Shown: positions 17,744 through 20,194 of the stretch, in pieces
Layout: each line of letters begins with the position of its first letter
Numbering within the stretch: position 1 is the first letter of the stretch
NCBI GenBank assembly: GCA_003519585.1
Contig: DOWL01000133.1
Span: 1 to 20,598, forward strand
Source: Nocardioides sp.
GTDB lineage: Bacteria > Actinomycetota > Actinomycetes > Propionibacteriales > Nocardioidaceae
Direction of reading: 5' to 3'
Length of the DNA: 20,598 bases
The notes under the pieces: model-generated
Told to the model about the DNA's origin: nothing
What the model saw: the letters and a program-made list of their open reading frames with translations, nothing else
The model's database searches: none
Made by a program: the position numbers and the translations under genes

Positions 17744-20194
17744 CTAAGGCGTCGGCTGAAGACTGTCGGCCTGGACCGGTTCTGTACGGGCCGGCGTGGG
17801 CAAGGACAGCCGCTTGAGCATCAGGGCGTTGACGGCGACCAGGAAGCTCGACCCGGACATTGACAGTGCGGCGATCTCGGGTCGCAGCACCAGGCCGAAT
17901 GCGGGTTCGAAGACGCCGGCCGCGATCGGTAGTGCGATCGCGTTGTAGCCCACGGCCCAGCCGAGGTTCTGCCGCATCTTGCGCAACGTGCCTCGTCCGA
18001 TCGTCAGTGCCACTGGCACGTCCAGGGGGTCGGACCGCATGAGGACCACGTCGGCGGCCTCGATGGCGACGTCGGTGCCGGCGCCGACGGCGATGCCGAC
18101 GTCGGCCTGCACCAGCGAGGGCGAGTCGTTGACGCCGTCGCCGACCATCGCGACGACGCGACCTTCGGCCTGGAGCTGCTGGACGTGGCGAGCCTTGTCC
18201 TCGGGCAGTACCTCGGCGATCACGGTGTCGATTCCCAGTTCCTCGGCGATCCGCTCGGCGGTCGCGTGGTTGTCGCCGGTGAGCATGACAACCCGGATGC
18301 CGGCCTTGTGCAGGGCCGTGACTGCCGCTGCGGAAGTCTCGCGGACCGCGTCGGCCATCCCGATCACGGCGACGACGATGCCGTCGAGGGCGACGAACAC
18401 AGCGGTGCGTCCGCCGGAGGCGATTTCGTCGCGTCGCCCTCCGAGATCGCCGACCGTGATGCGCTCGGATTCCATAAGGCGTCGGTTGCCGATCGCGACC
18501 TGGTGGCCGTCGACCTCGGCGAGCGCCCCGATGCCGGTGACGTTGCGGAAACCGGTGGCGCGCAGGCGCGGGGCGTCCGTCGCGTCGACATGGCGCACGA
18601 CTGCCTGGGCGAGCGGGTGCTCGGACTCGCGTTCGAGGGCGCCGGCCAACGCGAGTAGTCGTCGCTCGTCGACGCCGGGGGCGATGACGACGTCGGTGAC
18701 TTCTGGTTCACCCTTGGTGAGGGTTCCGGTCTTGTCCATCACCACGGTGTCGATCCGAGCCGAGGTCTCGATCGCGGTGGCGTTCTTGAACAGGATGCCC
18801 CGCTTGGCGCCCAGTCCGGAGCCGACCATGATCGCGGTCGGCGTCGCCAGGCCGAGGGCGTCGGGGCAGGTGATGACGACGACGGTGATCGCGAACAGCA
18901 GAGCGGTCTGCACGCTCGCGCCTGCAGCCATCCAGACCAGGAATGTGCCGACCCCGCCGACCAGGGCGACCAGGACGAGCCAGAACGCGGCCTTGTCCGC
19001 GAGTCGCTGTCCGGGGGCCTTGGAGTTCTGTGCCTGCTGCACCAGCGCGACGATCTGGGCCAGGGCAGTGTCCGCGCCGACCTTGGTGGCACGGACCCGC
19101 AGGGTGCCGGTGGTGTTGACGGTGGCGCCGATGACCGGGTCGCCCGGTGACTTGTGAACCGGGAGGCTCTCGCCGGTGACCAGTGCCTCGTCGATATCGG
19201 AGTCGCCTTCCTCGACCACCCCGTCAGTGGCGATCTTTGCGCCGGGGCGGACCAGGAGGAGGTCGCCGACGACGACATCAGCCGTGGAGATCTCGACCGG
19301 TTCGCCGTTGCGGATGACGAGAGCCTGGGGCGGCGCCAGATCCAGGAGGGTTCGGATGGCGTCGTTGGCGCCGCCGCGGGCGCGCATCTCGAACCAGTGG
19401 CCGAGGAGCACGAACGCGGTCAGCACAGTAGCTGCCTCGTAGAACACCTCACCGCCACCGGTGAGGGTCACCCCTAGCGAGTACAACCAGCCTGCCCCGA
19501 CGGCGACTGCCACCAGCACCATCATGTCGAGGGTCCGGGCGCGCAGTGCCCGCCAGGCCCCGTCGAAGAAGATCCAGGCGGAGTAGAACACCACCGGCAG
19601 TGACAGCAGCAGGCTGAACACGTCGTCACGGAGGCCGAACGGCGCGGCGGTGTCGAAGCCGAACACCTCCCGCCCGATCGGGGACCACAGCAGGATGGGG
19701 ACCGAGAGCAGCGCGGCGACCAGGAACCGGTTGCGCATGTCGCGAACCATGTCGGCCATCGACATGGACCCGTGCCCGCCGTGGCCCATGGCGTCGTGGG
19801 GCGAGCTGACCGGAGACGCGGGCGCACTGGTGTGCCCCGCGTGCGGGTCATGGGCGACGTGACCGTCGTGTCCGGTCGCGGGCCGCGGCTCTGTCATTGG
19901 GTCGCACACGTGGTGCGGAACCGACTGGCCGGCGCAATGGAAGCCGCACTCACGCACCCAGTCCCGTAGCTCGGTCAGGTTGGTGCGGTTGCCGTCGTAG
20001 GTGACCGTGGCGGTCTGCGCGACCGGGTTAGCGTCCACGGACAGGACCCCGGGCCGCCGCGACAAGACGGCCTCGGCCACGTTCTTGCTGGTGGCCCACT
20101 GCACTCCGGAGACCTCCAGGATGGCGGTGGCGTGGCCGTTGCCGTCTTCCTGTCCGGGGTCAAAATGGCCGTCGGCGTGTGCGTGCGTGGTCAT
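17744..20194 (-). CDS. P1B-type heavy-metal ATPase with CPD motif (CopB-like)
   Basis: An 816-residue metal-pumping ATPase. Core motifs are intact: TGES (340-343), DKTGT with the phosphorylated D487, SEHP (524-527), MLTGDN (637-642) and MVGDGVNDSP (683-692). In the sixth membrane helix the usual CPC or CPH is ITCPDALGLATPT, with CPD at 443-445. Later helices have YN (750-751) and SMSGSS (778-783), copper-ATPase-like. The N-terminus holds a degenerate HMA-like fold (about 22-88, SGVQWATSKNVAEAV) lacking the CxxC pair, then a His-rich tract (HDGHVAHDPHAGH, about 109-121, and HGGHGSMSM). ATG 20194 overlaps the upstream ATPase stop by ATGA. Copper export is likely from context; the CPD motif leaves metal and oxidation state open. 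Confidence 0.93.
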   Translation of the reverse strand: MTTHAHADGHFDPGQEDGNGHATAILEVSGVQWATSKNVAEAVLSRRPGVLSVDANPVAQTATVTYDGNRTNLTELRDWVRECGFHCAGQSVPHHVCDPMTEPRPATGHDGHVAHDPHAGHTSAPASPVSSPHDAMGHGGHGSMSMADMVRDMRNRFLVAALLSVPILLWSPIGREVFGFDTAAPFGLRDDVFSLLLSLPVVFYSAWIFFDGAWRALRARTLDMMVLVAVAVGAGWLYSLGVTLTGGGEVFYEAATVLTAFVLLGHWFEMRARGGANDAIRTLLDLAPPQALVIRNGEPVEISTADVVVGDLLLVRPGAKIATDGVVEEGDSDIDEALVTGESLPVHKSPGDPVIGATVNTTGTLRVRATKVGADTALAQIVALVQQAQNSKAPGQRLADKAAFWLVLVALVGGVGTFLVWMAAGASVQTALLFAITVVVITCPDALGLATPTAIMVGSGLGAKRGILFKNATAIETSARIDTVVMDKTGTLTKGEPEVTDVVIAPGVDERRLLALAGALERESEHPLAQAVVRHVDATDAPRLRATGFRNVTGIGALAEVDGHQVAIGNRRLMESERITVGDLGGRRDEIASGGRTAVFVALDGIVVAVIGMADAVRETSAAAVTALHKAGIRVVMLTGDNHATAERIAEELGIDTVIAEVLPEDKARHVQQLQAEGRVVAMVGDGVNDSPSLVQADVGIAVGAGTDVAIEAADVVLMRSDPLDVPVALTIGRGTLRKMRQNLGWAVGYNAIALPIAAGVFEPAFGLVLRPEIAALSMSGSSFLVAVNALMLKRLSLPTPARTEPVQADSLQPTP

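Follow-up and report, generated by a model that had tools for sequence, protein, structure and literature searches.

Results

The DNA analyzed here, referred to below as the window, is a 20,598-nt stretch from Nocardioides. It encodes a metal cluster on the minus strand in which the gene for a P1B-type ATPase with Cys-Pro-Asp (CPD) in transmembrane helix 6 (TM6) follows a copA-like gene and is in turn followed by genes for a DUF305 protein, an ArsR-type regulator and a DUF4396 protein, in this order. The features are as follows.

20191..20598, minus strand: 3′ end of the upstream copper-type P1B ATPase gene (copA-like), with YN and MAFSS; the gene is cut by the window end
17744..20194, minus strand: CPD-clade P1B ATPase (open reading frame; TIGR01511; Pfam E1-E2_ATPase, Hydrolase and HMA)
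19937..20119, minus strand: HMA-like domain without CxxC, residues 26-86 (PF00403, 46.6 bits, cut-off 24.8)
19904..19948, minus strand: conserved CGFHC...PxHxC, residues 83-97, from its conservation a candidate relocated site with putative metal binding
19772..19915, minus strand: His-rich linker, residues 94-141, from the His positions in the sequence
18836..18874, minus strand: ITCPDALGLATPT, residues 441-453 of the protein sequence, with the D445 codon at 18860-18862
17942..17947, minus strand: YN of TM7, residues 750-751 (120 of 120 CPD sequences)
17876..17878, minus strand: E773 at the start of TM8, an acid typical of the clade (107 of 120 CPD sequences)
17846..17860, minus strand: MSGSS of TM8, residues 779-783, copper-type (M779 in 120 of 120 CPD sequences)
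17003..17650, minus strand: DUF305 gene, CopM-family metallochaperone model (PF03713, 149.9 bits; NF049983, 98.7 bits, cut-off 90)
16923..16939, no strand: palindrome GTACCCCC-A-GGGGGTAC, CsoR-operator-like (chance 0.005 in the window)
16894..16917, no strand: 11-2-11 inverted repeat just upstream of arsR, candidate ArsR operator
16513..16887, minus strand: ArsR/SmtB-type regulator gene (NF033788, 72.8 bits, cut-off 55)
15734..16516, minus strand: DUF4396 gene with a His-rich N-terminus and a 4-base overlap with arsR (PF14342, 140 bits)

The open reading frame at 17744-20194 yields a protein of 816 residues that scores 585.9 bits with TIGR01511 (cut-off 397) and in which a Pfam search places E1-E2_ATPase, Hydrolase and HMA domains. 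A sequence-only reading made before this work had pointed to ITCPDALGLATPT with its CPD at residues 441-453, to intact catalytic motifs and to copper-like helices 7 and 8, and all three are borne out by the translation: C443-P444-D445 sits within the first of these, TGES (340), DKTGT (487), HP (526), TGD (639) and GDGxND (685) are all there and, with the family score, place the protein among the P1B heavy-metal ATPases, and the copper-type GYN of TM7 and MSGSS of TM8 are found at 749-751 and 779-783, respectively. The helices of an AlphaFold2 model (mean pLDDT 78.3) can be read as eight membrane helices, with the motif helix broken at 443-445, a stretch modeled at a local pLDDT of no more than about 60-65. 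Among solved sequences and folds the protein best matches copper pumps (LpCopA, AfCopA, plant HMA4 and ATP7B), and its closest named homologues are from Nocardioides. A sequencing error or a lone mutation is ruled out as the source of the CPD, since CPDALGLATP is common to all of the best 120 of 8000 homologues scored. TIGR01511 is a general copper-ATPase model and scores the protein above its cut-off, so that pumps of this kind are easily filed as ordinary copper pumps.

Phylogeny of the CPD Pumps

Scanning one genome per species for the exact CPDALGLATP pattern gave at least 120 stretches, for which conservation of the motif is by construction. Before each tree was built, duplicates and open reading frames that fell short of about residues 265 and 735 were dropped, and the motif columns were left out. 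The CPD sequences were monophyletic in every case: 98 of 98 in a FastTree phylogeny with three columns removed (support 0.992), 108 of 108 in a second tree (0.954), 28 of 28 under the C20 mixture in IQ-TREE (SH-aLRT 98), again 28 of 28 in a 75-sequence tree with ten motif columns removed (SH-aLRT 99), and 120 of 120, with a support of only 0.66, in a larger and cruder FastTree calculation with ten columns out and three distant P-type sequences removed. The earlier reading had proposed a separate subtype and suggested asking whether CPD proteins form a clade of their own or occur singly among those with CPH. Scattered convergence to CPD is rejected by the single clade in all trees, which supports the view, derived from these alignments, that the CPD pumps are one broad clade and a subtype in their own right. 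CPD and CPH sequences together were set apart from other P1B sequences with an SH-aLRT of 100 in both IQ-TREE runs and with 0.41 in the largest FastTree phylogeny, and with distant outgroup sequences included the root landed on the CPH branch; the sister group of the CPD clade, as judged from sequence, is likely the CPH (CopB) pumps.

The 98 CPD sequences of the first tree come from Actinomycetota (25), Pseudomonadota (28), Chloroflexota (5), Gemmatimonadota (2), Bdellovibrionota (1), Armatimonadota (1) and five CPR phyla (6), with 30 assigned to no named phylum, and the clade holds alphaproteobacterial sequences such as that of a Xanthobacteraceae locus (L011). One Mycolicibacterium genome (G005) gives 22 matches to the window protein, among them four CPD pumps (locus L010 and others) that lie on separate contigs and are 72-75% identical to it.

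Because the scanned sequences had been picked by their motif, even genome samples were drawn to judge whether the Asp is fixed. Among 198 evenly drawn actinobacterial genomes 19, the centre of the sample included, contain clade members at E < 1e-190, and CPD is present at every one of the 19 loci read, in four cases within CPDALALATP; another two hits, for which there was no locus, were left unread, and the next-best hits read in this sample are CPC. Clade members, without exception CPD, were found in six of 299 proteobacterial genomes (the centre and a genome already known among them), and over both samples the count is thus 25 of 25 clade members read, three of which were known beforehand. 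With the centres counted, 23 of 296 actinobacterial genomes and 6 of 299 proteobacterial ones contain the exact DNA pattern. The CPDALALATP variant belongs to deeper actinobacterial members (L288, L289, L290 and L292) that the exact DNA pattern misses. An Asp in this position had been thought unusual, which is true only to a degree, given a member of the clade in 19 of 198 actinobacterial genomes, that of the centre among them.

Metal Site in the Membrane

The copper-type residues of the membrane helices are nearly invariant in the 120 CPD sequences, with Y750, N751 and M779 in all 120, S782 in 119 (one gap) and M224 in 117 (two gaps); D445 is also found in 120 of 120, most of which were picked by motif. 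Other metal classes differ at these positions. In five P1B-2 sequences positions 751 and 779 are K and D, respectively, ten SPC sequences have H-E at 779-780, and the window protein has neither the K in TM7 and D in TM8 of the former nor the SPC in TM6 and H-E in TM8 of the latter. Most CPD sequences (107 of 120) have a second acid, E773, which occurs in 0 of 34 CPH, 1 of 77 CPC, 0 of 10 SPC and 0 of 4 TPC sequences. In the model it sits where TM8 begins and, by topology, it probably faces the outer side; we have not encountered it as a clade-typical acid in published reports.

The counterparts of the membrane residues in AfCopA are M158, C380, C382, Y682, N683, M711, S714 and S715 (PMC9433437), and the mutagenesis passages of that paper state that activity was lost when M4-6 residues were replaced by Ala and that a change of C380 or C382 impaired Cu(I) binding, with entry residues less critical. 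By alignment, the CPD clade has thus swapped one essential soft ligand for Asp and retained the others.

N-Terminal Region

An HMA-like domain without CxxC followed by a His-rich tract had been anticipated by the sequence-only reading, and both are seen, the Pfam domain at residues 26-86 and the linker at 94-141, with 15 His within the first 160 residues of the protein. The AlphaFold2 model has a beta-alpha-beta-beta-alpha fold at residues 21-82. No CxxC is present in residues 1-120 of the 816-residue protein, which has CGFHC at 83-87 instead. The same reading took the domain to be free of cysteines. This is wrong, and a cysteine-free HMA domain is rejected, because three cysteines (C83, C87 and C97) are located at or just past the C-terminal end of the domain and are largely conserved across the clade. 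The full motif, C83-G-F-H86-C87-x-G-x-x-x-P93-x-H95-x-C97, begins directly after the last predicted HMA helix (73-82).

Among 78 CPD sequences that include the N-terminus C83 is kept in 65, C87 in 73, H86 in 57, H95 in 60 and C97 in 58. C83, G84, C87, G89, P93 and H95, as well as H118, H138 and H141 of the linker, are each kept in at least 90% of a hand-picked 42-sequence alignment of which 17 members are the window protein and its close homologues. When the sequences too short for a motif count are left aside (26 CPD, 9 CPC, 29 CPH, 4 SPC and 1 TPC), CG[FYLHWM]xC is found in 74 of 94 CPD sequences versus none of 82 other P1B sequences (0 of 68 CPC, 0 of 5 CPH, 0 of 6 SPC and 0 of 3 TPC), and 60 of the 68 CPC sequences have an N-terminal CxxC. 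The deepest CPD branch, which includes CPR bacteria, mostly has no CGxHC, and several of its members have another Cys-rich N-terminus with CxxC; in L084, L049, L099 and L077 a short Cys-rich N-terminus with CPKC or CSKC replaces CGxHC.

In copper chaperones of the HMA fold the loop that precedes the last strand adjoins the CxxC loop. By analogy, the thiols of the CPD-pump HMA domain may have shifted to the opposite side of the same place, a relocation that we infer, the AlphaFold2 model being unreliable past residue 86. A conserved Cys/His motif in place of CxxC is not something we have encountered in published reports.

Gene Neighborhood

The CPD gene overlaps the end of the upstream P1B gene by 4 bases (20191-20194). 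The last 135 residues of the latter protein are inside the window and show YN, MAFSS and a partial fit to TIGR01511/TIGR01525, with the CPx motif outside the window. Just upstream of arsR, at 16894-16939, the ArsR-operator-like repeat and the CsoR-operator-like GTACCCCCAGGGGGTAC palindrome adjoin, the latter (16923..16939) being assigned with what we take to be the CsoR-operator consensus. A 14-base inverted repeat with 6 bases between its arms follows the DUF305 stop codon at 16954-16987 and is perhaps a terminator; a promoter scan of the window found none. The gene for an IS481-family transposase (14250-15470, NF033577) lies just downstream of the DUF4396 gene, and given this transposase the metal cluster may border a mobile segment. 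On a Hymenobacter plasmid (L231), too, a DUF4396 gene is found in the company of DUF305 genes, close to a P-type ATPase.

In 20 CPD-carrying genomes, with hits over the Pfam cut-off, a DUF305 gene lies within 5 kb of 8 of 24 CPD genes versus 10 of 91 other P-type ATPase hits, and 8 of those 10 stand near a CPD gene. For P-type ATPase hits far from CPD genes the count is 2 of 71 over the cut-off, 3 of 71 with all hits and 1 of 61 in a narrower count (51/64 DUF305 hits, 11 weak ATPase hits left out). The remaining 16 of 24 CPD genes have no DUF305 gene within 5 kb. Another P-type ATPase hit is located within 12 kb of 16 of the 24. A DUF305-domain protein, CopM of Synechocystis, is described in the passages on it in PMC4335983 as a periplasmic copper-resistance protein.

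Clusters of neighboring proteins at 120 CPD loci include one represented by a CPC ATPase (member in 19 loci), multicopper oxidases (13), DUF305 proteins (10) and MerR proteins (8); one cluster (18 loci) was discarded on visual inspection, as it resembled the ATPase gene read in antisense. CsoR-like genes are found in 13 of the 120 loci, ten with a C-x24-H-x3-C triad that we take as the label of a Cu(I) sensor. CsoR-operator-like palindromes occur in 14 of 120 loci versus 0 or 1 in ten resamplings (once in the window, at 16924), but their density, 17.8 per Mb, is close to the 16.4 per Mb around other P1B genes (4 of 74 loci); the sites therefore mark copper ATPases generally and not the CPD clade, and a CPD-specific tie to CsoR operators is rejected. 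Among the neighbors at the 120 loci are also an MFS transporter (12), an unnamed membrane protein (11), phosphoketolase (11) and DUF6629 (8), none with an obvious copper role, which come from Pseudomonadota loci (for example L118, L036 and L058), phosphoketolase from Actinomycetota as well (for example L093).

Relation to Known Pumps

CPD was named as a new motif in 2017 (Cubillas) for three rhizobial ATPases, from Xanthobacter, Nitrobacter and Bradyrhizobium, that the relevant sections of PMC5552934 place in cluster VIc (subtype P1B-3a) and describe as having MSGSS in TM8 and an N-terminus with few His. The window protein resembles these in the CPD of TM6, the YN(X)4P of TM7, the MSGSS of TM8 and the placement beside CPH pumps as given there, and differs in its 15 His within residues 1-160, the rhizobial proteins being described in these sections as His-poor at the N-terminus. 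Its assignment to P1B-3a rests on the motifs of Table 2 of that paper, the rhizobial sequences being compared by their description. The P1B-3a passages of PMC5552934 do not mention CGxHC...PxHxC, E773 or a spread over phyla. From sequence, then, the window protein carries the motifs of a named subtype, and what appears to be new is the broad clade across phyla together with the Cys/His motif and E773. No functional study of CPD pumps and no further paper on them was found in the open-access literature, with subscription journals mostly outside the search; open-access searches gave nothing on CPD with Rhodococcus, and the listing for Nocardioides copper ATPases held nothing about CPD. Whether a CPD group had already been characterized was a question posed at the outset, and it has a divided answer: a group has been published, as three rhizobial proteins of subtype P1B-3a according to those sections of PMC5552934, whereas a characterization was not found in open-access papers.

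The CopB (P1B-3, CPH) pumps of the neighboring clade share the GYN(X)4P of TM7, the MS of TM8 and a His-rich N-terminus, but have His in TM6 (34 of 34 CPH sequences) where CPD pumps have Asp (108 of 108) and MSxST in TM8 where CPD sequences usually have MSGSS. With CopA (P1B-1; AfCopA and LpCopA) the window protein has in common the fold, the catalytic motifs and the equivalents of M158, C380, Y682, N683, M711, S714 and S715, including the YN of TM7 (Y750, N751) and the MxxSS of TM8 (MSGSS, 779-783), while the second cysteine of CPC is Asp and the N-terminal CxxC typical of CPC sequences is absent, with CGFHC...PxHxC instead.

Function

We think it reasonably probable, on the evidence of sequence, that the CPD pump is a Cu(I)-exporting P1B ATPase with the CPH (CopB) pumps as its next of kin, encoded directly after a copA-like gene. 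Copper would enter via the thiol/His motif CGFHC...PxHxC, which replaces CxxC, and the His/Met linker, pass M224, be bound within the membrane by C443, D445 and M779, together with Y750 and N751, exit outward past E773 and be handed to partners outside the cell membrane, for example the neighboring CopM-like DUF305 protein. Having Asp where other pumps have the second Cys (or His) probably creates a weaker, faster-releasing or proton-linked Cu(I) site and does not change the ion. In favor of Cu(I) export are the near invariance of M224, Y750, N751, M779 and S782, the copper pumps among the closest solved sequences and folds, the separation of CPD and CPH, the latter regarded as Cu(I) exporters, from other P1B sequences in the IQ-TREE runs (SH-aLRT 100), and the neighboring DUF305 (8 of 24 versus 2 of 71), multicopper oxidase (13 of 120) and CsoR-like (13 of 120) genes. 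Against it, Asp is a hard ligand and AfCopA tolerates Ala at neither CPC cysteine without loss of function, the context evidence is partly common to neighboring copA genes (DUF305, CsoR-type sites), the majority of CPD genes (16 of 24) lack a DUF305 gene within 5 kb, and the grouping of CPD with CPH is root-dependent and has a support of 0.41 in the largest tree.

Metal choice in P1B ATPases is predicted from the residue that follows the TM6 proline, which is Cys in CopA and His in CopB. A multi-phylum clade that has Asp there, along with otherwise copper-type ligands and another kind of N-terminal Cys/His site, amounts to a natural experiment on that position, which could govern ion choice, affinity, release or charge balance. 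A more far-reaching and doubtful reading makes the CPD pumps a distinct functional class of P1B ATPases with a carboxylate in the canonical site, in which D445 and E773 would form a protonatable route by which Cu(I) export is coupled to the counter-transport of protons or a different ion is selected, and in which the HMA thiols would have moved from the CxxC loop to CGxHC...PxHxC, copper being taken by a route other than the CxxC of CopA.

Export of Cu(I) could also be slow and of high affinity, feeding outer copper proteins such as a multicopper oxidase or the DUF305 protein while the neighboring CopA serves bulk detoxification. The proximity of another P1B sequence (within 12 kb of 16 of 24 CPD genes) and of multicopper oxidases (13 of 120 loci) fits such a division of labor, and the sections of PMC7558416 on CopA2 describe slow pumps of that type. 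We nevertheless regard it as unlikely: no oxidase gene was noticed in the 20,598-nt window, the context fits plain resistance as well, and many actinobacterial plasmids carry CPD genes (of the 5000 best matches, 41 are such records, with 60-80% identity).

The canonical site of Ca and Na/K pumps is supplied with a carboxylate. A similar role for D445 in a pump for a harder ion or Cu(II), as the sequence-only reading had envisaged, would be in keeping with its presence in 120 of 120 sequences, most of them motif-picked, and in each of the 25 clade members that were read from the even samples (three known beforehand), and with the second acid E773 in 107 of 120. However, C443, Y750, N751 and M779 are retained as in Cu(I) pumps at positions where P1B-2 and SPC sequences differ, and CPD genes have copper genes as neighbors. 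In addition, passages of PMC7558416 and PMC10654040, both citing Purohit 2018, now count the CPH P1B-3 pumps, formerly labeled Cu(II) exporters, as exporters of Cu(I), so that the Cu(II) proposal loses its main precedent. A harder ion or Cu(II) is thus not supported and seems distinctly unlikely; Cu(I) export is favored over it because of the helix ligands, the kinship with CPH and the copper-gene context. It is very improbable that the protein is a transport-poor paralogue with another role, such as copper sensing or buffering via its Cys/His/Met N-terminus, for although a residue essential in CopA is replaced, the catalytic residues are invariant across 42 relatives and the clade persists in distant phyla.
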